This document shows, piece by piece, positions 1,785 to 29,574 of a stretch of 35,357 bases of DNA. The notes beneath the pieces are model-generated. The model was not told the origin of the DNA and did not search any database. It worked only from the letters and a program-made list of their open reading frames with translations. The position numbers and the translations under genes are program-made. Numbering within the stretch: position 1 is the stretch's first letter; the number at the start of each line of letters is the position of its first letter. This stretch comes from Chryseobacterium gleum. Its GTDB lineage: Bacteria > Bacteroidota > Bacteroidia > Flavobacteriales_D > Sanyastnellaceae. The stretch covers positions 1-35,357 of the forward strand of contig CAMCTV010000009.1 in assembly GCA_945878635.1 (NCBI GenBank). Reading direction: 5' to 3'.

Positions 1785-2713
1785 AAATAGTTGTAATTGG
1801 AAATGGGAAGATGGCGGCAGATTGCATCAAGATGATTTTGAATCAAACAGTGCATCAATTGTCTTATGTTTTCTTTGAAGCAGATATGAATGTCCAACCC
1901 AAGGTTTTATTGGATTGTATTGAAGAAAATCAAATTCCCTCCGCAGCCATTATCAAGATTCATGATGAAGGGAATTTAAACGTTTTGGAAGAACTTCAAC
2001 CCGATTGGATTTTCAACATCAACTGTTATCAATACCTCAGGGCTATTGTTCTTTCCAAGGCCAAATGCGGTGTCATCAACTTTCACAATGGTCCCTTACC
2101 GAGATATGGCGGTGTTAACATACCTACATGGGTCATACTAAACGGAGAGCAACAGCATGGAGTAACTTGGCATTTGGTCAATGAAGCCATAGATGCTGGT
2201 GATATTTTAGAACAAAGTACTTTTGAATTATCGTCCAAAATCACCGCAGCACAATTGATGGTTAAATGCATTCAAGAAGGGATTCGCTTGTTTGAAGAAA
2301 ATTGGATCTGCTGGATAGAAGGCCACACCAAGCCTCGCGTTCAGAATGGTGAAAGATTGTACTTTGGTTTAAAAGACAAAGTCAACCATGAGGGAATGCT
2401 CTCTGCCAACAATACAAGTGTTGACTGGGATAGAACAGTTAGGGCGCTCCATCTATTTCCTTACCCAAATGATGTCGCTTATGCGCACATTAAGATTCAG
2501 CATCAGAAATACTTTGCCATTGCGGGTAAGATCATTGATAATGATATTTCGCATCCCATCGGCACCATCACGTTGGATCAACCGACTGGTTTTGCTGTAC
2601 AATTGTCCGATGGTCATTACCTCATCACGCAATTGGCCGATGAAGAATGGAAATTGATTAAACCCAAAGATTTAGCGCTTATCTGCGGCTGTTCCAACTC
2701 AATGATTGAATAG
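1781..2713 (+). CDS. Formyltransferase family protein (Fmt/ArnA-like)
   Basis: A 310-aa enzyme starting at the ATG that overlaps the plug-protein stop (ATGA). The N-terminal half is a formyl_trans_N fold: a Rossmann-like start (MKIVVIGNGKM), VINFHNGPLPRYGGVN near residues 98-113 and IDAGDIL near 137-143. The usual catalytic Asn-His-Asp trio fits N100, H102 and D138. Such enzymes move a formyl group from 10-formyltetrahydrofolate to an amine. The housekeeping Fmt on tRNA is one possibility, but the C-terminal 100 residues do not look like a typical Fmt tRNA-binding domain, so a sugar-amine or other small-molecule acceptor is as likely. The link to the upstream secretion gene may be only shared transcription. 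Substrate unknown. Confidence 0.75.
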   Translation: MKIVVIGNGKMAADCIKMILNQTVHQLSYVFFEADMNVQPKVLLDCIEENQIPSAAIIKIHDEGNLNVLEELQPDWIFNINCYQYLRAIVLSKAKCGVINFHNGPLPRYGGVNIPTWVILNGEQQHGVTWHLVNEAIDAGDILEQSTFELSSKITAAQLMVKCIQEGIRLFEENWICWIEGHTKPRVQNGERLYFGLKDKVNHEGMLSANNTSVDWDRTVRALHLFPYPNDVAYAHIKIQHQKYFAIAGKIIDNDISHPIGTITLDQPTGFAVQLSDGHYLITQLADEEWKLIKPKDLALICGCSNSMIE

Positions 2714-2774
2714 TTTTTACAGACTTTTCAAATTTTTTCATCTCTTTTTTTCAACAATCTCTAATTTTTTTGGA

Positions 2775-2834
2775 TCGCCTTTTTCAAGTTATCCCCATTT
2801 CATTAACACTCCTTTCCTCAACCAAAAAAGGCGA
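2775..2834. repeat. 10-bp inverted repeat upstream of the condensin operon
   Basis: TCGCCTTTTT at 2775-2784 and its exact reverse complement AAAAAGGCGA at 2825-2834 lie in the 174-bp gap before the MksB-like gene. The arms are 40 nt apart. It may be a weak terminator for the formyltransferase gene or a regulatory structure in the leader of the operon. The rest of the gap is pyrimidine-rich on the plus strand and shows no coding signal. Confidence 0.4.
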
Positions 2835-2887
2835 ATAGCTTTACAAGGTTGAGCATCACAACTCGACCCTAAACAAATTTTTAAGGA

Positions 2888-5548
2888 ATGATTACACGAA
2901 TTATTGGTATCAATACCAGTACCTATGTGAACGCAGAAATGCGTCTAGATGATTGCGATTCATTGCAGTTGGTGGGGCCCAACAACGTCGGTAAATCGAC
3001 GTTGATTTATACCCTGAATTTCTTGTTCATCGTTGACGGATCCAAGATGTCTTTCTCAGGTCAACGCCGCGGCGACAAAGAAACCATTCACCACTACTTC
3101 CCAACCCACAACCAGAGTTATATCATTTTTGAGATCAAGAAGAACGATGCTGAGTATTGTATTCTGGTCAAGCGTGATAGCGATGGGGAATTGGAATATT
3201 TCAGATTGAATTGCGAATACCGTTCACAATATTTCTTCACCAAAGAAGGCACACACCAGCGTATCCGCAAATGGGATGAAGTTCAAACCACTTTGGAAGA
3301 GGAAAAAGTAGAGCTGTATTTGTACAAGAGCAAGACAGAAGTTTTCAATGCCGTTTACGCACGTGGCAAGCGCAATGAAGCGGTTATTTGGTTAGAGGAT
3401 AGCGTAAGAACGGATGGATTATCCAACAACTTTTCAAAGGTTTATCGTTATTTGATCAATTCAAAATTGATCACCAATAAAACCCTAAAGGAGTCTTTGA
3501 TCATTGCCGATAACAGAGAGAACGAAGGGCTTTCATTTTCGCAAAAGAACAAGAAAGACATCAACGATTTGTTGCGCATCAATGAGGAAATTAAAACCAT
3601 CAAGTCCATACAGAAGGATTTTGAAGAGTTCCGAGAGGTGGTGAATTTGTTTAGAGCGAAGAACAAGATTGTAAGTGATCTGGTTTATGCTTTTGACAAA
3701 CAATACAACGGTGTCATTCAGGATTTGGATTCTGGTCGTTTGGACAAAGAGAAGAATTTCCAAACCACTTTGGTCAATGTCAATGAAAAATTGAAGCCGC
3801 GTCAAGAGGAGTTGAACCGTGAAATTGGTAAAAAGGAAACCGAAGAAGAAATGCTAGAAAAGGATTTCATTGGATTGCAGACCCAATTGGATGAAATCAA
3901 TTCTTTTGAGACCAAGAAGTTTTTGGATGAGGCCTTGATCAATTTAGACGCCAAGCGCAAGGAGACTGAAGTTAGAATCACCACAGTTGAGAATAAAAAA
4001 TTGGATACCAAGCAACTGGAGTCCAAGTTGGGCAAATTGGACAGCGCCATTTCATTGTTGGAAAATCAGATTAAGAATTATGATGACCAGTTAATCCAAA
4101 AGATTACCGGTGATGATGAATCGAGAAAGGTATTGAATGCAATCTTCACACCGGAGTTCGCTACTCTACCTTCCAATTTGGTAAAGAAAAAGATCACCAA
4201 AGTTGGAGCGAGCATGAACATTTTTGATGGTGAAATCAAATTGCCCAAGGATATGCCATCCAAGGATATACCTTCTGTGAAAGCACTGAAAGAGGAATTG
4301 GCAGAGGTTCAGGCGGAGAAAATTGAATTGGAAAAACTTTGGGTAGTGGCCATGCACTTGGACAAGGCGCAGAAAGAGTTGCAAAAAGTAAATGAAGACA
4401 TCGAGGCCACTAAGGAAAAATTACGCAAGCTGAAAGAAAAGCCATCTTTAGAAAAGAAGATTTCTGAGTTGGGCAAGCAATTGCGCGAGGTCAAAGGAGA
4501 AAAGCAAACTCTTGAAGAGGAATTGCGCAAGTTAAAGAAAGATATCATTGAAAAAACGCTAGCGTTGGATACCTGGAAAGAGGACATCCGCAAGTCAGAG
4601 GAAAGGTTGATTGAGTTGAAGCGCAGAAAGCAAGAAATTGAAATGTTGGGCATTGTTCCAACAGCTTTTGATACAACAGAGTCATTGGACGATATCTACC
4701 AAAAAATCAAATTGGTGAGCCAAGATCGTGAAACATTGAAGTCCACTAAAGATAGAACCTTTGATCAACTGCGTTTCAAAACCAATAGCGCAACAGCGGA
4801 TGAAAATGAATTCATTAAATTCATTGAAGATGAAATTGCTTGCATCCAGGACAAAGAAAAATCCATCGATGGATTGTTGGCATCTATTTCAACCCAATTT
4901 GCCAATCCAGCTTACAATCTAAGAAAGCGCTTCGAAGAATTCAAAGCATTTGTATACAACAAATTCAATGATAGTCTTTCCAAGACACGCATCTCCAACA
5001 TTGAAAGTTTGCGCATTGAGCTGGTAGACAACAAGCGTGTATTGTTTGACTTGGAAAGAATTTCTTCCATTGAAAACTTGACTTCTCAATTGGCCTTTGA
5101 ATTTGAACAAGGTGAGGACTTGAAGATTCTGAACAACTACTTGGACAATGGAAAGACCATTGAGTTTGAAGATTTGTTTGACATTGAATTGCACCTGAAC
5201 ATCAAAGGCACTTTGAAGCGTGTGGATTTGAAAGAGCAAGTAGAATCGGACGGTACGGATAGGATGATTCGTTTGGTCATTGTCATGGCCATCATCAATC
5301 GTTTGGCCATTAGCTCTCCTCAAAATAAAATTGCACTCTTCATTGACGAGATTGGAACCATTGATGAGCAAAACCGTCCTCAGCTGGTACAGTTCTGTAA
5401 GGAGCACAACTACTTACCCATTTTTGCGGCGCCTCAGCCTTATGACGGATTCTCCAAGTATTATTTCATCTTCCGTTCAAAAGGAAAGATCAATTTGAAT
5501 GATCGCCAACATGCTGTAAGACGTGAAGAATTAAACCTTTTGAACTAA
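2888..5548 (+). CDS. mksB: SMC-like condensin ATPase, MksB/JetC-like
   Basis: An 886-aa protein with the architecture of an SMC-type ATPase. Walker A GPNNVGKST lies at residues 30-38, directly after a short N-terminal strand. Long heptad-rich, Glu/Lys-rich coiled coils fill roughly 215-400 and 465-620, separated by a non-coiled stretch at about 400-465 that may be a small hinge. A signature-like SDGTD is at 787-791 and Walker B ALFIDEIGTID has D820 and E821. It is much shorter than E. coli MukB (about 1,490 aa), as is usual for Mks proteins. It heads an operon with kleisin-like and MksE-like genes, which supports a MukBEF-like complex that extrudes or compacts DNA. The ATG at 2888 follows TAAGGA. 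Start and family are fairly sure; a RecN/SbcC-like role is the main alternative. Confidence 0.7.
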   Translation: MITRIIGINTSTYVNAEMRLDDCDSLQLVGPNNVGKSTLIYTLNFLFIVDGSKMSFSGQRRGDKETIHHYFPTHNQSYIIFEIKKNDAEYCILVKRDSDGELEYFRLNCEYRSQYFFTKEGTHQRIRKWDEVQTTLEEEKVELYLYKSKTEVFNAVYARGKRNEAVIWLEDSVRTDGLSNNFSKVYRYLINSKLITNKTLKESLIIADNRENEGLSFSQKNKKDINDLLRINEEIKTIKSIQKDFEEFREVVNLFRAKNKIVSDLVYAFDKQYNGVIQDLDSGRLDKEKNFQTTLVNVNEKLKPRQEELNREIGKKETEEEMLEKDFIGLQTQLDEINSFETKKFLDEALINLDAKRKETEVRITTVENKKLDTKQLESKLGKLDSAISLLENQIKNYDDQLIQKITGDDESRKVLNAIFTPEFATLPSNLVKKKITKVGASMNIFDGEIKLPKDMPSKDIPSVKALKEELAEVQAEKIELEKLWVVAMHLDKAQKELQKVNEDIEATKEKLRKLKEKPSLEKKISELGKQLREVKGEKQTLEEELRKLKKDIIEKTLALDTWKEDIRKSEERLIELKRRKQEIEMLGIVPTAFDTTESLDDIYQKIKLVSQDRETLKSTKDRTFDQLRFKTNSATADENEFIKFIEDEIACIQDKEKSIDGLLASISTQFANPAYNLRKRFEEFKAFVYNKFNDSLSKTRISNIESLRIELVDNKRVLFDLERISSIENLTSQLAFEFEQGEDLKILNNYLDNGKTIEFEDLFDIELHLNIKGTLKRVDLKEQVESDGTDRMIRLVIVMAIINRLAISSPQNKIALFIDEIGTIDEQNRPQLVQFCKEHNYLPIFAAPQPYDGFSKYYFIFRSKGKINLNDRQHAVRREELNLLN

Positions 5549-5661
5549 TGAAAACCTTTGATAACGAATTTCAATACAGCCCTTCAATTATAGAAAATCT
5601 TGAAGAGGTAAAAGTAAAATTTCACTTGATTGAAACCAGCGAAATAGCACAAAATGATTAA
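5548..5661 (+). CDS. 37-aa coupled small protein inside the condensin operon
   Basis: The stop of the ATPase gene (TAA) shares a base with an ATG (TAATG) that opens a 37-codon frame, MKTFDNEFQYSPSI then IENLEEVKVKFHLIETSEIAQND. It ends in TAA at 5659-5661, overlapping the ATG of the next gene by 8 bases (ATGATTAA). Both junctions are typical of translational coupling, so ribosomes would pass through this frame on the way to mksF. The product is acidic and has no recognisable domain. It may be a real small subunit or only a coupling leader that sets MksF levels. I know of no named homologue. Confidence 0.5.
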   Translation: MKTFDNEFQYSPSIIENLEEVKVKFHLIETSEIAQND

Positions 5662-6853
5662 AGCAGAACCACGGACCATCCTAAATTTCTTGCACACCTA
5701 TTTTGATGTGGTGCGGGATCTTTTTGAGTTCCAAGCCCATCATGGATTGATATCCAGAGAAGCTTTTGACATGATTGTCAAAAAACATGGTCAGCAAAAC
5801 ATCGTGGGAAAGCTGAAAGAGTACCGCATCGTAAGGAGCATCGGTAGTGATTTTGAAATGCGCGATGTGTATTTCAAAATGATGGAGTTCCTATTGTTTG
5901 AGTTCAAACCTTTGCTACCTGAGACCATCGAAAAGTACAAAGGAGCCATTGCCGAATTGTACATGAAAATTCGCTTGGGTGAAAACCATGATCGTGAAAT
6001 CTTGCAAGAGCGCATCAAGAACATCTCCCATCAAATCCGCGAGCTTGTTGATTTGGTCGAGCGCAATGCTTTTCGATTGCTCAGCGAGACAAGGGATTTG
6101 AAATCCAACATCGAGCGCGTGGAATACCGCGAGAAAGTACACAAAGCGTCTTTTTGGATTGAGTATTACATCCTTCCATTGAACAAAATTTTGGACGTCA
6201 ATCACTCGGAGTCTGTTACCAGTAAGCTATTAGAGGTCAGTGAATACGCCAATCGCAAACGATTGGATTTTGGTGATGAAACCATCCGCACTGAGTTTGA
6301 GAAATTGTACATGCAGCTGATTCAGACCAACCAAGATTTATTGCGTCAATCAAAGATTCTGACCAATGAATTGTTACCTCTCTTGGAAAGAATCAGAACT
6401 GAATCCTTGATTCTTACAGGTTTCATTGAGTTCTTGCGCAATCCATACAAAGTAGAAACACCACCTTTGTTGAAAGGATCGAGAACGATGGTTTACGCTA
6501 AGGAAATGCTCTTCAAAGTAAAAGAATTCTTTGAACAGTTTGAGCACCAAGAGGCTGTTTATTACGAAGAGGTGGATACGCAATTTGACAAATGGATTTT
6601 TGACCGAGAGGTTTTCATGGGGCAGTTGAATGCAGATCTGCCCGTGAAAGATTTCTTTGGATGGTGTTCCAAAATGTTGCTGAAAGAGTTCCCCAACATT
6701 GAGACAGAAAAATTCTTTGCCATCACTGGATTGTTATTTGATGAGCATTTGAATGTTGAGTTTCCCAAGAAAGATGAGAGAACCGTGATAGAAACATTGA
6801 ATGCCCGCATCAATCTACCGAAAATTAAAATAGAAACCCCCGTAAAAATTTAA
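5654..6853 (+). CDS. mksF: Kleisin-like condensin subunit, MksF/JetA-like
   Basis: A 399-aa cytoplasmic protein. The first 90 residues look like a winged-helix segment (helices, then IVGKLKEYRIVRSIGSDFEMRD), followed by an amphipathic helical region at about 100-290 with repeated I/L spacing, and a helical C-terminal part ending in basic LPKIKIETPVKI. This helical plan, its length and its place between an SMC-like ATPase gene and an MksE-like gene fit the MukF/MksF kleisin, which bridges the two ATPase heads. Recognition rests on context and fold pattern, not on a motif. The gene overlaps the 37-aa frame by 8 bases and ends 2 nt before the next start. Confidence 0.6.
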   Translation: MIKAEPRTILNFLHTYFDVVRDLFEFQAHHGLISREAFDMIVKKHGQQNIVGKLKEYRIVRSIGSDFEMRDVYFKMMEFLLFEFKPLLPETIEKYKGAIAELYMKIRLGENHDREILQERIKNISHQIRELVDLVERNAFRLLSETRDLKSNIERVEYREKVHKASFWIEYYILPLNKILDVNHSESVTSKLLEVSEYANRKRLDFGDETIRTEFEKLYMQLIQTNQDLLRQSKILTNELLPLLERIRTESLILTGFIEFLRNPYKVETPPLLKGSRTMVYAKEMLFKVKEFFEQFEHQEAVYYEEVDTQFDKWIFDREVFMGQLNADLPVKDFFGWCSKMLLKEFPNIETEKFFAITGLLFDEHLNVEFPKKDERTVIETLNARINLPKIKIETPVKI

Positions 6854-6855
6854 GT

Positions 6856-7398
6856 ATGGTATACCCTACGCACCATAGAAGAATCGTTGAAGACCTGATG
6901 GGTGGTAAGTTCATTTTGAGCAATGAAGACCACTACAATTCAATGAAAGAAAATGACAAGTTTTACAATGAATTTTTCAAAATCAGTTTTGATTTGGATT
7001 TGATTGTCAAGCCAGAGTTTTGCTATCTTTTGTCCAAAGACACGCAGGAGAATTTCTCTAGAGATGTCAGTATTTTCATAGCCGTATTGTGTTACGAGCT
7101 GGACAAAGACGGACAGAACTTCATGGAAATGATGGACTATCATGAGTTCAACTACGAGGAAATCGATCGTTATTTTGAAAACAGTTCATTCATTGATTTG
7201 ATTGAAAGCAACAAGGCTTTGAAAGATGCGGACAGCCGCAGAACACTCATCAATGGAATGGCAAGAAGAAATATCTTGCACAAATCCTTTGAGGACCGAT
7301 TCATCTTCACCCAGGCACACAGGGTGTTCATTGAATTTGCCAAAGAATTGGCGATGCGGAAAATGGCCGTGAGTAAAGAGGAAGGCGTAACGGAATAA
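6856..7398 (+). CDS. mksE: MksE/JetB-like condensin accessory subunit
   Basis: A 180-aa protein that begins 2 nt after the mksF stop. The sequence has the layout of MksE: an early LMGGKFILSNEDHYNSM segment, KFYNEFFKISFDLDLIVKPEFCYLL, then SRDVSIFIAVLCYELDKDG and a C-terminal winged-helix-like part with RFIFTQAHRVFIEFAKEL. In MukBEF and MksBEF this subunit binds the kleisin and regulates the ATPase. No MksG/JetD nuclease gene follows, unlike Wadjet anti-plasmid systems, so a role in chromosome organisation is the better guess. Assignment depends on both sequence pattern and operon position. Confidence 0.6.
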   Translation: MVYPTHHRRIVEDLMGGKFILSNEDHYNSMKENDKFYNEFFKISFDLDLIVKPEFCYLLSKDTQENFSRDVSIFIAVLCYELDKDGQNFMEMMDYHEFNYEEIDRYFENSSFIDLIESNKALKDADSRRTLINGMARRNILHKSFEDRFIFTQAHRVFIEFAKELAMRKMAVSKEEGVTE

Positions 7399-10085: not shown

Positions 10086-10562
10086 TTACACATTCTTTAA
10101 TTTCATGAGAATTTCGAGCAAGAATTTTCTTTCATCACTCGAAAGTGTCTCAAACATAATTTTGCTTATAGACTCCATTCTGCCGTGAGCTAATTCAAGC
10201 GTTTGGCTACCAACTTTTGTAAGCTTATACATTTTCTTGCGTTTGTCGACTTTATTCTGTTCTTCCAACACGAGTTGTCGGTCGATACACCTTTTAATAA
10301 ATTCAGAAACACTACTCTTTTCTAAATTCAAATAGTTTTTAATATCGCTATGATTTGGACTATCCGTGTGACTAATGAAAACCAAAATAGAATATTCCTC
10401 AGTATTTGAAATCAACAGGTCATTAAACGCATGACGTATCATATTACGTCTTTTTCTCTCAATTTGACTCCATCTCCAATGCAGAATCGATTGTAAAGCA
10501 GTTACAGTGTTTTCGGTTTTGTCGAGAATAGAATTCGTTATCTGATAGTCAATGTACCTCAT
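10086..10562 (-). CDS. MarR-family transcriptional regulator
   Basis: A 158-aa protein; ATG 10562 is preferred because an upstream extension would run across the shared promoter and operator. The winged helix-turn-helix is visible: EEYSILVFISHTDSPNHSDIKNYLNLEKSSVSEFIKRC as helices 2-4, then LVLEEQNKVDKRKKMYKLT as the wing with the family's D-x-R motif (VDKRKK), and a C-terminal dimerisation helix. MarR proteins repress divergent genes until a small ligand binds. Here the divergent neighbour starts an SDR-crtB-crtA-like row, and a perfect palindrome lies in the 50-bp gap. So it likely controls carotenoid genes and itself. The ligand is unknown. Confidence 0.8.
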   Translation of the reverse strand: MRYIDYQITNSILDKTENTVTALQSILHWRWSQIERKRRNMIRHAFNDLLISNTEEYSILVFISHTDSPNHSDIKNYLNLEKSSVSEFIKRCIDRQLVLEEQNKVDKRKKMYKLTKVGSQTLELAHGRMESISKIMFETLSSDERKFLLEILMKLKNV

Positions 10563-10570
10563 AAAAATTA

Positions 10571-10584
10571 GTTCAACGTTGAAC
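10571..10584. promoter_or_regulatory. Palindromic operator, probably for the MarR regulator
   Basis: GTTCAACGTTGAAC is a perfect 14-bp palindrome in the divergent gap, directly downstream of the likely -7 box of the regulator gene and 29 bp before the SDR start. MarR proteins bind palindromes of this size. Confidence 0.65.
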
Positions 10585-10611
10585 AAAAGTACCTCAAATT
10601 TGTCTAACAAA
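10584..10611 (-). promoter_or_regulatory. Likely promoter of the MarR gene
   Basis: On the minus strand TTTG (10611-10608), 16 nt, then TACTTTTG (10591-10584), matching the TAnnTTTG box. The spacing is slightly shorter than usual. The palindrome begins at the last base of the box, so binding would block transcription. Confidence 0.5.
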
Positions 10612-10612
10612 T

Positions 10613-11278
10613 ATGAAAACTTTAAGAATAGCCCTTTTCGGAGCAACAGGTAAAACCGGAATTGAATTCATAAAGCAATCTTCATTGCTTATGAATACGA
10701 GTGTAACAGCGTTCGTCAGAAATGTTGAAAAACTAAAAGAATCGCTTGAAGATCTGCCACATAATCTTCGAATTGTGCAATTTGACGTCAGGGGAAACTC
10801 CTCGTGGTCTGACGAACTTGAAAAATGTAATGTTTGGGTAAGCCTCGTTGGTATTTCAGGACTAATTTCTGCGCGAAAACCAAATTCACTGTATGCAAAA
10901 ACGGCTCAACTATTAACAGAGCGCGCAGTGAAATACAATCCTGAAAGAGTGTTAATAGTTACAAGCGGTGGCGTAGTTGATTCTGAATCTGAGCCCTGGA
11001 TATTGAAGAAAGTGTTGAAGCCCTTCTTTTTAAATCCGATGTACCAAGATATGAGAGTAATGGAGAATATTATTACCAAGAGTCAAATGAATTATGCTAT
11101 CGTTCGCCCCCCTTATTTGACAAACGGTAAGCTAATATCGCAATACAGAATAATCTTTGACGACTGGTTTACCGATGATAAAGTGCTTTCCAGGCGAGAC
11201 TTAGCTCATTTCCTAGTCATGCAATGTAGAGAATTGAATGAAAAATTCAATCGTCGAATAGTTGGTGTTTCCTATTAA
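10613..11278 (+). CDS. NAD(P)-binding SDR-like protein (NmrA/BLVRB type)
   Basis: A 221-aa protein with an atypical short-chain dehydrogenase fold. The nucleotide-binding GxxGxxG appears as LFGATGKTGIEF at about residues 8-19, followed by SVTAFVRNVEKL and a central VWVSLVGISG, then VLIVTSGGVVD and the AIVRPPYLTNG segment typical of NmrA-like and biliverdin-reductase-B-like proteins. These bind NAD(P) and either reduce small molecules or sense redox state. It is the first gene of a row with crtB and a CrtA-like gene, and ends 10 nt before crtB. A role in carotenoid modification or in redox sensing for the cluster is inference. The sequence is AT-rich like its neighbours. Confidence 0.75.
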   Translation: MKTLRIALFGATGKTGIEFIKQSSLLMNTSVTAFVRNVEKLKESLEDLPHNLRIVQFDVRGNSSWSDELEKCNVWVSLVGISGLISARKPNSLYAKTAQLLTERAVKYNPERVLIVTSGGVVDSESEPWILKKVLKPFFLNPMYQDMRVMENIITKSQMNYAIVRPPYLTNGKLISQYRIIFDDWFTDDKVLSRRDLAHFLVMQCRELNEKFNRRIVGVSY

Positions 11279-11288
11279 CAGCACAGAC

Positions 11289-12110
11289 ATGAATAATCTC
11301 TTTAATAAGACTTGTTTTTACTCAAGCAAAAAAACAACACAACTATACTCCACCTCCTTCAGTTCGGGTATATTATTCTTTCACAGGAGCATAAGACAAG
11401 ACATATACAATATTTATGGTTTTGTGAGATTCGCCGATGAAATTGTGGATACCTACATGGGAGTTGACAGTGCTGAAATTTTGAACGAGTTTAAGCAGGA
11501 AACATTCAAAGCAATTGAAAGGGGTGTGAGTTTCAATCCAATCATTCACTCCTTTCAATTAACAGTAACAAAGCACGAAATTGATCTTGAACTTATTCAT
11601 TCATTTTTAAAAAGTATGGAAATGGATTTGAGTAAAAAAGAATTTAACAAAGAGCAATTTGATCAATATGTTTATGGTTCAGCCGAAGTTATTGGGCTTA
11701 TGTGTCTTTCGGTATTTACAAAAGACAAAAGCGAGTATCTCAATTTGAAGAATTGCGCTGTTGCATTGGGATCAGCTTTCCAAAAAATAAATTTCATTCG
11801 AGACATGGGCAGTGACTTTTACGACAGAGGCAGAATATATTTTCCAAAAGTTGAATTCTCAAATTTTTCAAACCGAGAAAAGAAAGAAATTGAACATCAA
11901 ATTTCTCAAGAATTGGAGTTGGCTCGTCAAGGAATATTGAAATTACCACGTAATTCAAGGAAAGGTGTTTTCCTTGCATTCTCATACTACATGTCGCTTT
12001 TTTCAAAAATAATCTCTACTGAATCTTCAGAATTACAATCCAAGAGAATAAGAATATCTAATTGGCAAAAATTTCTCATTATGATTAGAGTTACTCTTCA
12101 AACTGCTTAA
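11289..12110 (+). CDS. crtB: Phytoene synthase
   Basis: A 273-aa trans-isoprenyl diphosphate synthase that joins two geranylgeranyl diphosphates to phytoene, the entry step to carotenoids and retinal. Both Asp-rich sites are intact: FADEIVD with D50 and D54, and RDMGSDF with D172 and D176. The order LYSTSFSSGILF, YGFVRFADEIVD, GSAEVIGLMCLSVF and ALGSAFQKINFIRD is the bacteroidete CrtB pattern, so a squalene synthase is less likely. I start at ATG 11289; an upstream ATG at 11262 would overlap the SDR gene and adds nothing conserved. The partner desaturase gene crtI is not in the window. A CrtA-like gene follows 13 nt later. Confidence 0.88.
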   Translation: MNNLFNKTCFYSSKKTTQLYSTSFSSGILFFHRSIRQDIYNIYGFVRFADEIVDTYMGVDSAEILNEFKQETFKAIERGVSFNPIIHSFQLTVTKHEIDLELIHSFLKSMEMDLSKKEFNKEQFDQYVYGSAEVIGLMCLSVFTKDKSEYLNLKNCAVALGSAFQKINFIRDMGSDFYDRGRIYFPKVEFSNFSNREKKEIEHQISQELELARQGILKLPRNSRKGVFLAFSYYMSLFSKIISTESSELQSKRIRISNWQKFLIMIRVTLQTA

Positions 12111-12123
12111 TGTTTATCCAATA

Positions 12124-12804
12124 ATGCAAATTACATCATTTTATGTTTTTCACATACGACCGAAGCATCAATACAATGCATTGGTTAAGATGTCATACGC
12201 ATCAATTAAACTTCGAAAGGCAACAGGATGCTCTTTTGCAAAAATTATGGGAAGTGGCGCAGGACCCTTAGGTTTTGGATTGAGACCAAATTTCAAATTA
12301 TACGTAGCAATAATGGTTTGGGATAATTTGGAAAGCTTGAGAATTTTTGAAAAATCAAACAAGATGTTTTTAGCCTATGAAAGTATTTCAACTAAAATAG
12401 ATAAATACTATGGTCAACCTTATAAAGTACATGGTTTATGGGGTGGTATTAATCCTTTCAAAATTGAATTGAATAAGGAAGTTTTGAATTCCGAAATTAT
12501 CGTTCTCACTAGAGCTCGAATACGCTTTAATCTTATCATCAAATTCTGGAGTTTTGTTCCCAGAACAAGCAACGCACTCCTCAATGTAGATGGTCGAAAG
12601 CTAAGTATTGGTGTCGGCGAACTTCCCTTGCTCTACCAAGCTACTATGAGCATTTGGAACTCTCAAGAACACATGCGCACTTATGCTTACGAGAATGCTG
12701 AACATCTTGAAGTTATCAGAAAAACAAAAGAATTAAATTGGTATGCGGAAGAACTTTTTTGTCGTTTCTATGCATTAGATATAGAAAACCTTCAAGCAAA
12801 TTGA
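12124..12804 (+). CDS. CrtA-like (spheroidene monooxygenase family) protein
   Basis: A 226-aa protein. The second half carries the family signature: ARIRFNLIIKFWSFVP, LSIGVGELPLLYQATMSIW, and EHLEVIRKTKELNWYAEELF then CRF. The first half has CSFAKIMGSGAGP, matching the family's WMGSGxGPG region. CrtA of purple bacteria adds a keto group at C-2 of acyclic carotenoids; bacteroidete relatives have been proposed as carotenoid oxygenases. Placement 13 nt behind crtB supports a carotenoid substrate. The family mark is good, the exact reaction is not known. It could make a 2-keto or hydroxylated end pigment or an antenna for the rhodopsin at 27561-28277. Confidence 0.68.
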   Translation: MQITSFYVFHIRPKHQYNALVKMSYASIKLRKATGCSFAKIMGSGAGPLGFGLRPNFKLYVAIMVWDNLESLRIFEKSNKMFLAYESISTKIDKYYGQPYKVHGLWGGINPFKIELNKEVLNSEIIVLTRARIRFNLIIKFWSFVPRTSNALLNVDGRKLSIGVGELPLLYQATMSIWNSQEHMRTYAYENAEHLEVIRKTKELNWYAEELFCRFYALDIENLQAN

Positions 12805-22440: not shown

Positions 22441-22899
22441 GTGAAAAACAAAAAATTATACCTTGCTCAATTGGATCAAAAGTTGTCTCCTTTCGAAGCT
22501 GCCAAACTATCTATTCGACCAGCTATGGGCTGGGTGAAAACAATTCGCACATCCCTGGGTATGTCCATGGAGCAATTGGGCAGAAAATTAGGGGTAAGCA
22601 AGCAAAGCGTCCAGCATTTAGAGAAAAGAGAAAGCACAGGGTCAATAACATTATCAGCTTTGAATGATGTCGCCAAAGCATTGGACATGGAGCTGGTGTA
22701 TGGATTTGTTCCCAAAGGAGGAAGCGTGGTTCATTTGGTGGAAGAAAAGGCCCGGAAAATGGCTACCGACATCGTCATGCGCACATCCCACAATATGAAT
22801 CTCGAAGACCAAGCGGTATCGTATCAAAGATTGAACAAGGCCATCGAAGAGCGCACAAAAGAAATCATGCAACAATTGCCCAAAGCATTATGGGATTAA
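22441..22899 (+). CDS. Mobile mystery protein A (HTH partner)
   Basis: A 152-aa protein with a GTG start at 22441. A Cro/C1-type helix-turn-helix lies at about residues 40-85: SMEQLGRKLGVSKQSVQHLEKRES then GSITLSALNDVAKALDMEL. The beginning (AQLDQKLSPFEAAKLSIRPAMGWVKTIR) and the GFVPKG turn are characteristic of the family called mobile mystery protein A, found next to mobile mystery protein B in many genomes. It probably represses the pair and may act as antitoxin to the Fic protein. Its gene overlaps the next by 10 bp. It starts about 130 bp behind a tRNA gene, a common place for acquired DNA. Confidence 0.85.
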   Translation: MKNKKLYLAQLDQKLSPFEAAKLSIRPAMGWVKTIRTSLGMSMEQLGRKLGVSKQSVQHLEKRESTGSITLSALNDVAKALDMELVYGFVPKGGSVVHLVEEKARKMATDIVMRTSHNMNLEDQAVSYQRLNKAIEERTKEIMQQLPKALWD

Positions 22900-23486
22900 A
22901 ACAGACATACACTTCTGGACAAACCCCCATCAATGAAGAAGAAAGCGAGGGACTCAAAATTCTCACCATCACCACACAAGGCGAACTCAATGAATTTGAA
23001 CAACACAACATTGAGCACGCGATGGTCTGGCTTCTTTCGCAGCGGCTCACAGCACAACAATTGCTAACCGAATCCTTTATTAAGAAATTGCACGCCAAAA
23101 TGTATGGGGAAGTTTGGAAATGGGCGGGAAAGTTTAGAACAAGTGAAAAGAATTTAGGAGTCCCGCACTATTTGATCAGCACTGAACTGAAACGATTATT
23201 GGACGACACCCAATATTGGATCTCCAACGCCACCTTTTCGCCAGATGAAATAGCCATTCGATTCAAGCATCGCTTGGTATGTACTCACTGCTTTCCCAAC
23301 GGAAATGGAAGACATAGCCGCGTTATGTCTGATCTTATCATTGAAAAAATATTTGGCCTACCCCACTTCACCTGGGGCCACTCACCATTATCCGAGCATG
23401 ATTCCGCCAGAACAAAATATTTGGCCGCTTTGAAGAAAGCAGATCTCCATGACTACCAAGATTTGATGGACTTTGCGAGAAGTTAA
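22890..23486 (+). CDS. Mobile mystery protein B (Fic-domain protein)
   Basis: A 198-aa Fic protein. The core motif THCFPNGNGRHSR is at residues 132-144, with catalytic H133; Fic enzymes transfer AMP or another nucleotide part to a protein hydroxyl. The usual acidic residue before GNGR is N137 here, as in my memory of this family. The N-terminal TPINEEESEGL region corresponds to the family's TPLDxDExEGL start. The pair with protein A is known from mobile DNA and behaves like a toxin-antitoxin or regulatory module, but its biological effect is not established. The target is unknown. A dispersed repeat follows directly. Confidence 0.87.
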   Translation: MGLKQTYTSGQTPINEEESEGLKILTITTQGELNEFEQHNIEHAMVWLLSQRLTAQQLLTESFIKKLHAKMYGEVWKWAGKFRTSEKNLGVPHYLISTELKRLLDDTQYWISNATFSPDEIAIRFKHRLVCTHCFPNGNGRHSRVMSDLIIEKIFGLPHFTWGHSPLSEHDSARTKYLAALKKADLHDYQDLMDFARS

Positions 23487-23774: not shown

Positions 23775-23852
23775 TTTGTCAAATAAAACCACTTTCTTTG
23801 TCATATAAGGTCAATGTTGCTTTTGGTATTATCATTCTGACTTTATTTGTCA
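23775..23852 (+). promoter_or_regulatory. Three TTTGTCA boxes upstream of the WYL gene
   Basis: TTTGTCA occurs at 23775-23781, 23797-23803 and 23846-23852, the last 12 bp before the chosen ATG. The first two are 22 bp apart, about two helical turns. They may be binding sites of the WYL regulator itself. Confidence 0.35.
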
Positions 23853-23864
23853 AGATTTTTTATC

Positions 23865-24728
23865 ATGTTCAATCAAAACAGAATTTATAGGGTTTTTCAA
23901 CTGATTCATTTTTTGAAATCAAAACCGTCCAAACCCATTCGCAGCATCGCCAAACGTCTTGAAGCTTCTGAAAGAACCGTATACCGGTACTTGGATATGC
24001 TCAAAGATCTGGGATTTGATGTTGTTCGAGATGACAACAACCGATACGCATTGAATGCTGAGTCACCATTCGATACTCCTACATTCACTTCACAAGAGGC
24101 ACAATACCTCAAACGACTTGTTCAAACCAGTGGTAAAAAAGTGCAACTCAACGCCAGTATCCTTCAAAAATTGGCTCATCTGTATGACGATCCCTTGAAC
24201 ACCAACTTGATTGTTCAAGCTCAAATTGGACAATGGGTAGAAACCATCAGTCATGCAATCATCGATAAGAAACAAATCAAAATTGAACAATACGCCTCCG
24301 CCAATAGCCTCTCCATCTCTGATCGAATTATCGAACCCATTTGCTTCACCGATAACTATAGGTCCATTGCCGCTTTCGAGCCCCTGACGCAACGCTGCAA
24401 ATTCTTCAACCTAGAACGCATGGGCAACGTCGTAATGCTAGACAAGAAGTTTGCTCACGAAGCAAAACACGAGTTCAGACCACCCGATGCTTTTGGTTTT
24501 CAAGGAGACCAAACCAATAAAGTTATTGAACTGTCCATGAATCTCAGAGCTTATCTCATTTTAAAAGAAGAATACCCCATGTGCATCGCTCGTATTGTCA
24601 ATAAAGACAATTACCACCTAAAGATCAAAGTGCAAGGTTTCATGGCGCCTGCAAGATTTGTCAAAGGAATGAAAGAGGATGTCAAAGTGCTAGGATCAAA
24701 AGCGTTTATTGAATACTTGAAGGGATGA
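23865..24728 (+). CDS. WYL-domain transcriptional regulator
   Basis: A 287-aa regulator starting at ATG 23865; a TTG upstream would add six residues. An HTH_11 domain covers about residues 7-60: FQLIHFLKSKPSKPIRSIAK, RLEASERTVYRYLDMLKDLG, then the wing FDVVRDDNNRYAL. The WYL region follows at about 125-190 with IIDKKQIKIEQYASANS and NYRSIAAFEPLTQRCKFFNLERM, replacing the strict W-Y-L residues, and a C-terminal WCX-like part ends in VLGSKAFIEYLKG. WYL proteins sense nucleotides or nucleic acids and often control defence or DNA-damage genes. No clear target operon is adjacent except the Fic pair upstream. Its stop codon lies in the first unit of a minisatellite. Confidence 0.8.
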   Translation: MFNQNRIYRVFQLIHFLKSKPSKPIRSIAKRLEASERTVYRYLDMLKDLGFDVVRDDNNRYALNAESPFDTPTFTSQEAQYLKRLVQTSGKKVQLNASILQKLAHLYDDPLNTNLIVQAQIGQWVETISHAIIDKKQIKIEQYASANSLSISDRIIEPICFTDNYRSIAAFEPLTQRCKFFNLERMGNVVMLDKKFAHEAKHEFRPPDAFGFQGDQTNKVIELSMNLRAYLILKEEYPMCIARIVNKDNYHLKIKVQGFMAPARFVKGMKEDVKVLGSKAFIEYLKG

Positions 24729-24821
24729 AGGGATGAAGGGATGAAGGGGTGAAGGGATGAAGGGATGAAGGGATGAAGGGATGAAGGGATGAAGGGGTGA
24801 GGGATGAAGGGGTGAGGGATG
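24718..24821. repeat. 8-bp minisatellite (GATGAAGG)n
   Basis: About thirteen near-perfect copies of AGGGATGA, with AGGGGTGA variants and two 7-bp copies near the end. It fills the gap between the converging WYL and flavin-reductase genes and includes the WYL stop codon. Confidence 0.92.
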
Positions 24822-24843: not shown

Positions 24844-25467
24844 TTATTTCGGAGATTTAGCATAGGGCAATTTACCCAGCAATTGTGCGACGTGATAGGT
24901 GTCCAACCCACTGCATGTGACGGATTGAGCAGCATTCAAATCAATAGAACCATCTTCCATCAAACAATCTTCAGGAGCCTCTAGGTATATGATTCGCCCA
25001 ATGATTATGGTGGTGTCATTTAATGCTATGTCTATTTTTTGCACCAATTCACAACCCAATTTTATTTTGCTCTCACTAACAAATGGCGCTTCAATCTCAT
25101 TGATGAATTGCGGTGTAAGGGCAACAGCTTCAAATTCACTAACTCCCGCTGGATACTTGGCACTGCATTGATGAGCCTTTTCGTAAAACTCAGGAAGCAC
25201 ATGATTCAATGTGTAGTACTTTGTGTTTAGAATATTTCCCAATGTGTTTTCTGCATTTTCTACAGGACGAATAACGATCCCGCAAAGCGCTGGATCAGCA
25301 CCGATATGAAAATAAGAACTAAAGGTGGCCAAGTTGTGATTCCCCTGAGGACTAATGGTGCCCAGGAGATGCAAACTTTTGTATCCACCAATTGAATTGA
25401 TTAAGTTGCCGCGATAACGGCGCTCCAAAGTGACTAAATCTTTTGCTGTCCAGCGCATATGATACAT
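24844..25467 (-). CDS. Flavin-reductase-like FMN-binding split-barrel protein
   Basis: A 207-aa protein of the DIM6/NTAB flavin reductase class. It shows the split-barrel start RRYRGNLINSIGGYKSLHLLGT, then NHNLATFSSYFHIGADPALCGIVIRP, ENTLGNILNTKYYTLNHV, and IIIGRIIYLEAPEDCL. Family members bind FMN and reduce or use it. The ATG at 25467 follows the CrtY-Blh stop by 9 nt, so it is co-translated with the retinal-forming fusion. CrtY needs reduced flavin for lycopene cyclisation in other bacteria, so supply of reduced flavin to the fused enzyme is a plausible role; that is inference. Start could be ATG 25458 as well. Confidence 0.75.
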   Translation of the reverse strand: MYHMRWTAKDLVTLERRYRGNLINSIGGYKSLHLLGTISPQGNHNLATFSSYFHIGADPALCGIVIRPVENAENTLGNILNTKYYTLNHVLPEFYEKAHQCSAKYPAGVSEFEAVALTPQFINEIEAPFVSESKIKLGCELVQKIDIALNDTTIIIGRIIYLEAPEDCLMEDGSIDLNAAQSVTCSGLDTYHVAQLLGKLPYAKSPK

Positions 25468-25476
25468 ATTCAAATC

Positions 25477-27489
25477 CTAGATCCTGGTAACTGCATTCCG
25501 ATTGTAAAAACGCAACATAGCCAAGACATGAGGAAAACTTAAACTGGATAAAAATATAAAAAAAACACTCCAGCCTACTTGATTGTTCATTGCATTCAAT
25601 GGCCAATAATACATATAAACCAATAAGAATATCCATGCGCCCAATTGAAAGACCAGAGATTGTTTCCACATTTGAAAATGGGTCAGCTTTAATCTTTGTC
25701 GCAAATGCCCCCAACCCAATGCACTATGTTGAAAGATAAAATAGAGTCCAAAAGCATAAATCAATGGAACCATTGCTGTTAAGCTCAACCAAATTAGGGT
25801 AATGAACATAGACCGCTGTTTGTGGTACCATGCCATCAAAAACCAAGGAATAAGGATAAAACCATTTGCATAAGGAATGGTTCCCGAATATCCCATAGCA
25901 GATAGAATTACTGAAGCCTCTCCTTGATGTGAACCTAGAATATAAAAGAGCAAAGTACCGCCCCACATCCAAGAAACAATGTTGGACATTCCCCACTCTA
26001 TTCCGTCCGTTTGACCAAAATGAATGGCTGAATAGATCAGGAAAATAAGCAACGCTAGCGTTGGGTGAAACATCCAGATTGTGGCCATCAAACCCATCAT
26101 TAGCAGGTAAAGTCCCAAGAAATTAAAGAACCTTTTGGTTCCAAAAACGCAAGACTCCACCAAGTGATCCAACGCTCCATGTGGAATTCCAATGGCAATA
26201 AGCCCCAACAATAGAATACCCAACGAAAAGAAATCAATCCAAATATTGTCTGGACTAAAAAAAGCAATTACCATCAAGTAAACAAAAATACCCAGTTGCC
26301 GATAGTACCTTCCACCCCAAACAAGCAGAGCCTTTAGAAATGGTCGCCAAGGCAATTGATAAAATATGTTTAACTCCTCTGTAAGAGTAGTTTTGTGCTC
26401 CAAAAATCGCATTACCATTGGCAAAGAAACTTTATGCAACAAAGCGTTAAATAAATCTTTTCCAAACTGTGGCCAGCGGGTCAACACAATGAGCAATAGC
26501 GCATCGTAAAATTCAAAACGACGATTGACTTTCCTTTTTGAAATAGACTTAAAAGACAACAACTCTTTATCTTGCTTTTCAATGTCATCAGCAATACGCA
26601 TGGCCTGATCACGCATCATCTTGAAAGCATAGCCAGTTGTGGGTTTTAACATTCCTGCTCTTGCGCCCAACAAGGTAACCCCTTTTCGATCACTGTGTGA
26701 CATGGCGCAATTGGTCATGGGTATTGCCGCCAATTCAGTTTCTTTGATTTCGTAATCCCCAAAATGTTTTTCAATGTATTCATGCAGGATAGGAAACGCA
26801 TCATCATCCGTCAGTGATTCCTTACCAAAACGGGTTAGCTCAACCAGGACATTGTGCGAATCAAATGGCAAAACATACATGAACTGGGTGTAGTCATTCT
26901 GTACAACATCAAAATCCATCCATCGAAACAAATCTGCATTTTCAATTGGTCGCTCCGTTTGAATAAACCACCCCACAAAACTCTGAAGCATAAAAACCTC
27001 TTGGTTCTTTGGCTCAAAATACTTGGGCGGGCGTGAATCAAAAATATGTTTGGCAAAATACTGTTCTCCGTTTGCGATGACATATTTCCCTTTGCTATTG
27101 GAGGCTACGATATCGGCGTGGTGCTGAATAATTCCTAATCGTTCACTCTGAATAATCTCTCTAGTAGCATCATACAAATCCAAACCTGAAATAAAATGGT
27201 ATCGAAAAGGATCCAAAGGCGCAGCCTCTCCTTTTGACAATTCCATTGTACTCCAAGATTTCTTGATCAAATGTCCTAGATCTTGAACAATACAATCTTT
27301 ATCATCAGCCCAAAAACAAAATGTGCGATCATTCTTGGTTTTTGCATCCCCATCCAAGATCAAAACTTTCTTACCAATGAACAGCTTGCGTTTATTCATC
27401 GCATGAATCAACAAAGCAGTAGAGGCTCCATTTCCTACAAAAATGTAATCATATGTTTCGCTCATACTGTTTTCATTTGATTGATTCAT
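25477..27489 (-). CDS. Lycopene beta-cyclase - Blh beta-carotene dioxygenase fusion
   Basis: One uninterrupted 670-aa frame with two enzymes. Residues about 10-385 are CrtY: FAD site YIFVGNGASTALLI, NDRTFCFW (53-60), FDSRPP (150-155), the QSFVGWFIQTERP block, MYVLPFDSHNVLVELT, and LLGARAGMLKPTTGYAFKMM. Residues about 395-665 are a Brp/Blh membrane enzyme: seven or so hydrophobic helices with GIPHGALDHL (H437, D441, H442), AIHFGQTD (H490), QHSALGWGHL (H588, H595) and FPHVLAML (H654). The chain could convert lycopene to beta-carotene and split it to two retinals. Separate crtY and blh genes are the norm. It lies between the rhodopsin gene and a flavin-reductase gene on the same strand. ATG 27465 is an alternative start. 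A strong hairpin precedes it. Confidence 0.88.
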   Translation of the reverse strand: MNQSNENSMSETYDYIFVGNGASTALLIHAMNKRKLFIGKKVLILDGDAKTKNDRTFCFWADDKDCIVQDLGHLIKKSWSTMELSKGEAAPLDPFRYHFISGLDLYDATREIIQSERLGIIQHHADIVASNSKGKYVIANGEQYFAKHIFDSRPPKYFEPKNQEVFMLQSFVGWFIQTERPIENADLFRWMDFDVVQNDYTQFMYVLPFDSHNVLVELTRFGKESLTDDDAFPILHEYIEKHFGDYEIKETELAAIPMTNCAMSHSDRKGVTLLGARAGMLKPTTGYAFKMMRDQAMRIADDIEKQDKELLSFKSISKRKVNRRFEFYDALLLIVLTRWPQFGKDLFNALLHKVSLPMVMRFLEHKTTLTEELNIFYQLPWRPFLKALLVWGGRYYRQLGIFVYLMVIAFFSPDNIWIDFFSLGILLLGLIAIGIPHGALDHLVESCVFGTKRFFNFLGLYLLMMGLMATIWMFHPTLALLIFLIYSAIHFGQTDGIEWGMSNIVSWMWGGTLLFYILGSHQGEASVILSAMGYSGTIPYANGFILIPWFLMAWYHKQRSMFITLIWLSLTAMVPLIYAFGLYFIFQHSALGWGHLRQRLKLTHFQMWKQSLVFQLGAWIFLLVYMYYWPLNAMNNQVGWSVFFIFLSSLSFPHVLAMLRFYNRNAVTRI

Positions 27490-27492
27490 GTT

Positions 27493-27536
27493 AAAAAAGA
27501 AAAGGGACGAAGGTTAAAAAAACACCTCGTCCCTTT
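27493..27536 (-). terminator. Intercistronic terminator hairpin behind rhodopsin
   Basis: AAAGGGACGAAGGT (27501-27514) and ACCTCGTCCCTTT (27524-27536) form a 13-bp stem with one bulged A. The minus strand continues with TTCTTTTTT at the 3' side. It is 3 nt from the fusion gene start, so read-through would be needed to reach it. Confidence 0.82.
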
Positions 27537-27560
27537 CCGATTGATTTGTTGTAAATGTGA

Positions 27561-28277
27561 TTAGTCTTCTGATCTAGAAAGACTGTAAATCACCAAACCG
27601 AAACCAATTTTATTGATGGCATCGGCGATGTTGTAAACGATATCCATGGCATGCAAAGCAGCTGCTTTGTCTTGAACCAATTTCATACCGAATAAACCTC
27701 CGTCGGTTCCTAGGATATATCCCAATGGATAAATTGCCCATCCAACCAACACGAACCAAGCAAGTATACGCGTAGCTTTTGCAACTTGTGGTCCTGCAGT
27801 TTGTGCCAATTTTGAAACCTCACCAAACCAAATTAGGTATGCGATGTAGAAGTATGCTGCTCCCGAGATTACTCCCCAAAGAACGCTTTGTGCTGGATCT
27901 AATACTTCTCCGATGTAACCAGTTACCAACATGACCAAAGACGCGAAGATCAACTTCCACAACAAAGAAACCTTTGCTCCAGCCTTTTTGGTAATCAAGT
28001 AAAATTCAACGCACATCAACGGAACAGTCAAAATCCAGTCCACATAACGGAAAAACGTTGGAGAATCGCCTGTCTCCAAATTGTAACCCCTCATGTAATA
28101 ATAGTGAACTGCTGCAATGAATGTAATCAAACCCGATACCAAGACGGAAGTTCTCCATTTTGGTGAGGTGTTGTTTAATTCAAAGAAGAAGAATACTGAT
28201 GCGGCCATCATGGCCATTGTTCCGATAAAGAACGTAAATGCAACATAGTTGTCGCTCGCAATTTTTAAATGCTCCAT
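27561..28277 (-). CDS. Green-tuned proton-pumping rhodopsin (proteorhodopsin-like)
   Basis: A 238-aa seven-helix membrane protein. Helix C reads RYVDWILTVPLMCVEFYL with D80, T84 and E91, the D-T-E motif of outward proton pumps (acceptor D, donor E). The spectral tuning site, eight residues after the acceptor, is M88, which goes with green absorption in bacteroidete pumps. H58 in helix B (AAVHYYY) fits the His that pairs with the acceptor in proteorhodopsin. The retinal lysine is K223 in NIADAINKIGFG, with D219 four residues before. Light would drive protons out and support ATP synthesis. Retinal is made by the fusion enzyme encoded just downstream. The leader has a CCAAAA repeat. Confidence 0.95.
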   Translation of the reverse strand: MEHLKIASDNYVAFTFFIGTMAMMAASVFFFFELNNTSPKWRTSVLVSGLITFIAAVHYYYMRGYNLETGDSPTFFRYVDWILTVPLMCVEFYLITKKAGAKVSLLWKLIFASLVMLVTGYIGEVLDPAQSVLWGVISGAAYFYIAYLIWFGEVSKLAQTAGPQVAKATRILAWFVLVGWAIYPLGYILGTDGGLFGMKLVQDKAAALHAMDIVYNIADAINKIGFGLVIYSLSRSED

Positions 28278-28443: not shown

Positions 28444-29574
28444 TTATTGCTTCGCAATGGTTGAAACATTGAAACCATTGTTGCCATGCAATGACAACAA
28501 GTACATTCCTTTGGAAAGATTGGAAAGATCCAATTGTGCATTACCGTTCAGATTACCAGACTCAATCACCTTACCAGAAAGATCAGTAAGTGAATACTTA
28601 GCTTGACCTGAGTATATAACATTGATCAAATCTTGTGTCGGATTTGGGAATACACTTACCTCAATACTGTTGTTATTAGATACAACAGTAGATGGAGGCA
28701 ACAATACAGCGTCAATGACGTGTGCCACACCGTTATAGGCCAAAACATCAGGAATAGTCACATTGGCGTTATTGATCATGACTCCATTGGTCAAAGAAAC
28801 CAAAACGGACTCTCCATTCAATGTAGTTACAGGACCTTCAACCAAATCAGTTGACAAAACCTCAGAACCAACAACGTGATAAGTTAAAACATCGGTCAAA
28901 TTAGGCAAAGCCAAAATCCCATTGATATCTGTTCCCAGGGCCGTGGCAAGATTGTCAAAAGCCTCGTTGGTAGGTGCAAAAACAGTGAAAGAAGCCAATG
29001 GATTGCTTAAAACAGGAACCAACTCCTCTTGTATCAATGCGGTGGTCAATGTGCTGAAACCATTATCAATTGCTAAATCGACTACAGTCTCCACTGGTAA
29101 AACAACACCATTCAAAACGTGAACAACTCCGTTGTCCGCAGCTACATCTGCCAAAGTCACTTGTGCTTGATTAACAAATACATTGCCTGAACCGGTTAAG
29201 GTCAATTTCAAAGTATTGGTTGTGCTCAACGGTTCAACAATGGCACCATTGGTTACCGCTGATGAAGGGACTGCCGTTCCAAGAACGTGATACAATAAAA
29301 TATCACTCAAAATATCCAAGGCCAACAAACCAGCAATATCGGTTTGCAAAGCACTAGCCAATTGTTCAAAAGCCTGATCGTCTGGAGCAAACACCGTTAA
29401 GTTGGCTGATGGATCTTGCAAAGCTGATGCTAAGCCTTCCTGTAGCAAGGCTGCCTCCAAATAATTGTGATTGGGACTGACTGCAATGACATCGTCAAAT
29501 ACATTGGTCTGGGCAATAGACTCGCTTGAAATTGAAACGATTAATGCTAGAGCAAAAAGTTTAATTATTTTCAT
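28444..29574 (-). CDS. Secreted fasciclin (FAS1) protein with T9SS sorting domain
   Basis: A 376-aa protein with a signal peptide (MKIIKLFALALIVSISSESIAQ). Two FAS1 domains follow at about 25-155 and 160-295; each has the pattern LTVFAPDDQAFEQLA or FTVFAPTNEAFDNLA, a L.YHVLG or LTYHVVG, and a final VVHVLNGVVLP or VAHVIDAVLLP. The C-terminal part (VSVFPNPTQDLINVIYSG and the GMYLLSL end) is a type A T9SS sorting domain, which directs export across the outer membrane and attachment to the surface. FAS1 proteins mediate adhesion. It is a separate transcript, with its own terminator, upstream of the rhodopsin gene on the same strand. Confidence 0.93.
   Translation of the reverse strand: MKIIKLFALALIVSISSESIAQTNVFDDVIAVSPNHNYLEAALLQEGLASALQDPSANLTVFAPDDQAFEQLASALQTDIAGLLALDILSDILLYHVLGTAVPSSAVTNGAIVEPLSTTNTLKLTLTGSGNVFVNQAQVTLADVAADNGVVHVLNGVVLPVETVVDLAIDNGFSTLTTALIQEELVPVLSNPLASFTVFAPTNEAFDNLATALGTDINGILALPNLTDVLTYHVVGSEVLSTDLVEGPVTTLNGESVLVSLTNGVMINNANVTIPDVLAYNGVAHVIDAVLLPPSTVVSNNNSIEVSVFPNPTQDLINVIYSGQAKYSLTDLSGKVIESGNLNGNAQLDLSNLSKGMYLLSLHGNNGFNVSTIAKQ

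Follow-up and report, generated by a model that had tools for sequence, protein, structure and literature searches.

A probable private lycopene-to-retinal branch encoded by a crtY-blh fusion gene beside a proteorhodopsin gene in Bacteroidota

Phototrophy by rhodopsin depends critically on a supply of retinal. In the window analysed here (the whole stretch of DNA, 35,357 nucleotides), a proteorhodopsin gene is followed by a frame in which the lycopene cyclase CrtY and the retinal-forming enzyme Blh appear to be joined in one chain. Is the join real, how did it arise, and what would such a chain do for the cell? The following features bear on these questions.

24844..25473, minus strand: flavin reductase-like gene, 3 bases behind the fusion stop

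25477..27489, minus strand: crtY-blh fusion gene, 670 amino acids, ATG at 27489

25516..26205, minus strand: Blh domain by Pfam (BCD, PF15461), residues 429-658, with the universal His 437, 490, 588 and 654

26205..26364, minus strand: junction, in which the last CrtY helices (369-378) continue into a long helix (381-410) that is the first Blh membrane helix, with no disordered linker, as predicted

26329..27450, minus strand: CrtY domain by Pfam (Lycopene_cycl, PF05834), residues 14-387, with E217 in VELTRFG and the FAD motif GxGxS conserved

27493..27538, minus strand: terminator-like hairpin (27538-27499) and U-run (27498-27493), between the rhodopsin stop and the fusion start

27561..28277, minus strand: proteorhodopsin (Bac_rhodopsin, E 6.5e-45), with the D-T-E set (DWILTVPLMCVEF) and M at the spectral tuning site

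28444..29574, minus strand: upstream neighbour, a secreted fasciclin-domain protein with a T9SS tail, found only within the genus

The fusion frame is a single open reading frame of 670 codons on the minus strand; the plus strand of the same interval is full of stops. An earlier note on this DNA, which did not give the strand, had described one frame holding a full CrtY and then a full Blh, and the Pfam matches to Lycopene_cycl and BCD bear this out. The motifs it quoted (NDRTFCFW, DSRP, GARAGMLKPTTGYAF, GIPHGALDHL, AIHFGQTD, QHS and FPHVLAM) are all present in the translation. Translation more likely begins at the in-frame ATG at 27465 (residue 9), since most relatives show nothing aligned to residues 1-8 and the pLDDT of this stretch is below 50.

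That two genes were joined here by a sequencing or assembly error, the objection raised in the earlier note itself, is vanishingly improbable. The source is a draft genome of 170 contigs, which is the one point in favour of an error, but the uninterrupted frame recurs in dozens of other genomes, including two of the same genus (96% and 89% identity). Among the three same-genus copies dN/dS is 0.15-0.17 in the CrtY part, 0.09-0.37 in the junction and 0.03-0.05 in the Blh part, and the purifying selection thus spans the junction. A joining error is excluded because the frame is intact in these two relatives and dN/dS is well below 1 even across the junction.

Genome searches within Bacteroidota took in a sample of 299 Flavobacteriales genomes; in 67 of them, belonging to 15 genera, a single uninterrupted frame spans all or nearly all of the protein, as it also does in three genomes of another Bacteroidota order. 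Blh is present in 139 of the 299 (67 fused, 66 unfused, the rest fragments at contig ends); among sampled Flavobacteriales with a Blh, about every second genome carries the fusion, contrary to the impression of rarity left by the earlier note. A scan of genome contigs with the single protein gave two close relatives only, and viral contigs yielded no relative of the fusion. One candidate, G419, was rejected as two adjacent genes. Rhodopsin was found in 60 of the 67 fusion genomes, within 300 bases of the fusion in 30 and located elsewhere in half of those that have one; seven, from a set in which some genomes are incomplete, had no detected rhodopsin.

In the open-licence papers searched, no account of a bacterial CrtY-Blh fusion came to light. 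The closest known case is a protein of the protist Thecamonas that joins CrtI-CrtB-CrtYcd-Blh (PMC10016063). Both chains have a lycopene cyclase followed directly by a Blh at the C-terminus, and the authors of that study likewise propose direct conversion to retinal (PMC10016063). Thecamonas, however, is a eukaryote, its cyclase is of the CrtYc/d type, non-homologous to CrtY, and CrtI and CrtB are joined as well, whereas the cyclase of the bacterial chain falls in PF05834 with no PF18916 match and the chain holds no CrtI or CrtB. By these domain assignments the bacterial fusion is separate from, and convergent with, that of Thecamonas. Natural fusion of retinal-pathway enzymes within a bacterial rhodopsin cluster also occurs at other pathway steps: a 2023 study of rhodopsin clusters reports CrtIB in Pelagisphaera proteorhodopsin operons and cites CrtBY and CrtIBY, and its passage on known carotenoid fusions makes no mention of CrtY-Blh (PMC10284914). 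The two-protein CrtY and Blh systems found beside rhodopsin use the same enzyme families, but as two proteins with one cyclase within the retinal operon rather than as one chain.

The phylogenies point to how the join was made. A tree of CrtY domains, 35 fused and 41 unfused, places the fused ones on one side of one branch (support 97/99); closest to them are the unfused CrtY of three genomes (G030, G041, G442) whose crtY and blh genes, arranged in the same order, share 4 bases. Such overlapping pairs (L084, L085, L038, in other Bacteroidota) match the fusion in gene order and strand; unlike in the fusion, a stop and the 4-base overlap keep two proteins. Since the fused CrtY domains group in a single clade beside these pairs, the fusion, which is an old one, probably arose once, through loss of the stop in an overlapping crtY-blh pair. 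The Blh tree, whose details are unsure owing to long branches (L080, L127, L032), requires two changes for the fused domains, for example one gain and one loss. Nested in its fused clade (clade support 93/94) is the free-standing, equally short Blh of a genus-level group of the same family (g7, L111-L121). These loci have no CrtY match, and no CrtY remnant was found beside the g7 Blh genes, which suggests that this group lost the cyclase half later on. One related genus has Blh alone plus CrtYcd, so the fusion is not required for retinal supply. The overlapping pairs, the fusion and the Blh-only lineage offer evolutionary steps along which fused and unfused forms can be compared.

The CrtY half matches Lycopene_cycl with an E value of 1.7e-40 (139.8 bits against a gathering cut-off of 23.4), covering profile positions 1-378 of 380. 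It scores below the curated NCBIfam cut-offs for CrtY (87 against 209.5 bits for TIGR01790 and 53.1 against 215.2 bits for TIGR01789) and on this basis is a divergent member of the Lycopene_cycl family rather than a proven CrtY equivalog; its exact product is assumed, because these scores lie so far under the curated cut-offs. Its fold is that of the geranylgeranyl-reductase/hydroxybenzoate-hydroxylase flavoproteins, and among viral structures it best matches an annotated lycopene cyclase; a sequence search of solved structures with the fusion gave no relative. G19 and G21 of the FAD-binding motif GxGxS are conserved across fused and unfused CrtY, as is E217, which we take to be the catalytic acid. 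Four residues (D151, R153, Q202 and R220, the last three residues from E217) are nearly fixed in fused CrtY and mostly different in unfused CrtY.

It could be argued from these four residues, from the scores below the cut-offs and from the presence of CrtYcd in the genome that the CrtY half has changed its role, forming a compound with one ring or some other product, or chiefly anchoring or activating Blh while CrtYcd feeds Blh its beta-carotene. We consider this improbable: every position common to unfused CrtY, E217 included, is invariant in the fusion, dN/dS of this half stays at about 0.15-0.17, and a purely structural function would need no intact FAD fold.

The Blh half matches Pfam BCD (E 6.4e-29, 101.8 against a cut-off of 28) and passes the curated NCBIfam model (115.1 against 95.25). 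His 437, 490, 588 and 654 are invariant in the 35 fused and essentially all unfused Blh, and from what is known of the family they are candidate iron ligands. About ten membrane helices are predicted in this half, the positive-inside bias places both of its termini inside, on the side where CrtY must find FAD, and the predicted topology sets the four histidines on even-numbered helices, in their middle or inner part. An AlphaFold2 model built from 32 fused sequences (pLDDT 85, pTM 0.72) predicts that the final helix of CrtY runs almost without a break into the first membrane helix of Blh, with CrtY cytoplasmic. We read the protein as a conserved enzyme that is probably bifunctional, its CrtY half presumably turning lycopene into beta-carotene and its Blh half beta-carotene into retinal. 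With that predicted activity it would be a ready-made catalyst for retinal production.

The source genome has one rhodopsin and one Blh. On its contig C73, a crtI-crtB-(unknown)-idi-crtZ cluster ends with the gene for a second cyclase, of the unrelated CrtYcd type (PF18916, 1.1e-24). The CrtZ-like protein of this cluster shows its His boxes in the sequence, lies below the Pfam threshold, and is 51% identical to the product of a gene between crtB and CrtY in another fusion genome (G057), where the second cyclase is an unfused CrtY in a crtI-crtB-crtZ cluster and the fusion lies elsewhere. The idea that the fusion is the only lycopene cyclase of the genome, which had rested on a single match with the fusion protein and the absence of an FA_hydroxylase match, was rejected, as the crtI-crtB contig carries both CrtYcd and the CrtZ-like gene.

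What is new here is that 63 of the 67 fusion genomes, the source genome among them, keep a second lycopene cyclase (CrtYcd in 56, unfused CrtY in seven). Two cyclase types occur in only 6 of the 66 genomes with unfused Blh, a contrast with a Fisher p of about 1e-25 that overstates independence, the genomes being related and the 67 not independent events. From this contrast, which is the strongest genomic argument for a self-contained lycopene-to-retinal branch, the fusion is best read as a private branch from lycopene to retinal that supplies the adjoining proton-pumping rhodopsin, while CrtYcd, with crtI-crtB-idi-crtZ, serves the xanthophylls. We put the probability of this reading at roughly 0.78; labour would then be divided between the fusion for retinal and CrtYcd for xanthophylls. 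The routing of lycopene to retinal proposed in the earlier note is kept as the best reading. Its further expectation of little free beta-carotene fares less well: this is not readable from sequence and could hold only for the fusion branch, and beta-carotene need not be scarce in the cell, because the separate, non-homologous cyclase can make it for xanthophylls. Genomes with a one-chain enzyme beside a second cyclase lend themselves to direct study of how beta-carotene is divided between chromophore and pigments.

Other carotenoid genes of this genome were also seen. A second small carotenoid group lies in the window at 10086-12804, comprising a MarR-type regulator, an NAD-binding protein, a phytoene-synthase-like protein (47.5% to the genome's crtB) and a protein like CrtA, the spheroidene monooxygenase (150 bits, under a cut-off of 300). 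Contig C41 of the same genome (L110) carries CrtD (599.7 bits, over the cut-off) and a CruF-like gene at 1817-4516; because of these two genes, the genome probably makes further hydroxylated carotenoids.

Whether the private branch also hands beta-carotene physically from one active site to the other is a separate and more conjectural matter. Physical channelling is plausible, and a dedicated lycopene-to-retinal synthase with such a handover, keeping separate beta-carotene pools for the pump chromophore and the pigments, is a tentative proposal to which we give slightly less than even odds. We give comparable weight, again somewhat short of an even chance, to a neutral history in which an overlapping pair lost its stop once and the product was kept since both halves work; dosage would be equal, there would be no channelling, and beta-carotene would mix with the membrane pool. 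In its favour, crtY and blh stand in this order in sister loci and share 4 bases there, and the Blh-only lineage nested in the fused clade manages without the cyclase half. On the other hand, the same join is kept down to 33-35% identity, with a junction that is short and structured and shows no drift to a loose linker, and genomes with the fusion have kept a separate cyclase to serve the rest of the pathway, although channelling is not thereby proven.

The private-branch reading also draws on the neighbourhood. The fusion lies 71 bases downstream of the proteorhodopsin gene on the same strand. That it is encoded behind a proton-pumping rhodopsin, as had been stated before, agrees with the D..T..E residues, which we take to denote a proton pump; M occupies the spectral tuning position. 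The hairpin between the two genes (40 nt, fold z -3.5) was detected by a fold-based scan and missed by a generic terminator scan; scans for promoter-like sequence between rhodopsin and fusion gave no match. The hairpin and U-run layout recurs in all 17 rhodopsin-fusion gaps examined (L095 among them), whereas only 15 of the 45 other same-strand gaps of comparable length have it (p 9e-7), and in G128 the hairpin sequence has changed while its form is kept. Seven of the 8 loci in which unfused genes follow a rhodopsin have it as well, so the hairpin belongs to the rhodopsin operon rather than the fusion. It may act as a leaky terminator whose read-through would give much pump and little enzyme, a possible form of dosage control.

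Behind the fusion, the flavin reductase-like gene has relatives (43-75% identical) near rhodopsin or retinal genes, in other positions, in five genomes (G107, G202, G058, G097, G442). CrtY works with reduced FAD, and for this reason the flavin reductase-like protein may supply reduced flavin to CrtY and keep its flavin reduced.

Elsewhere in the window we observed a condensin-like set of the MksBEF/Wadjet type at 2888-7398 (an SMC-like ATPase, an unknown 399-amino-acid protein and an MksE-like protein; PF21980, 3.1e-17 for the last), and a pair of mobile mystery proteins, A (HTH) and B (Fic domain), at 22441-23486, both over curated cut-offs. An 8-base tandem repeat, TGAAGGGA, runs for about 13 copies at 24718-24821, directly behind a regulator-like gene (23847-24728).
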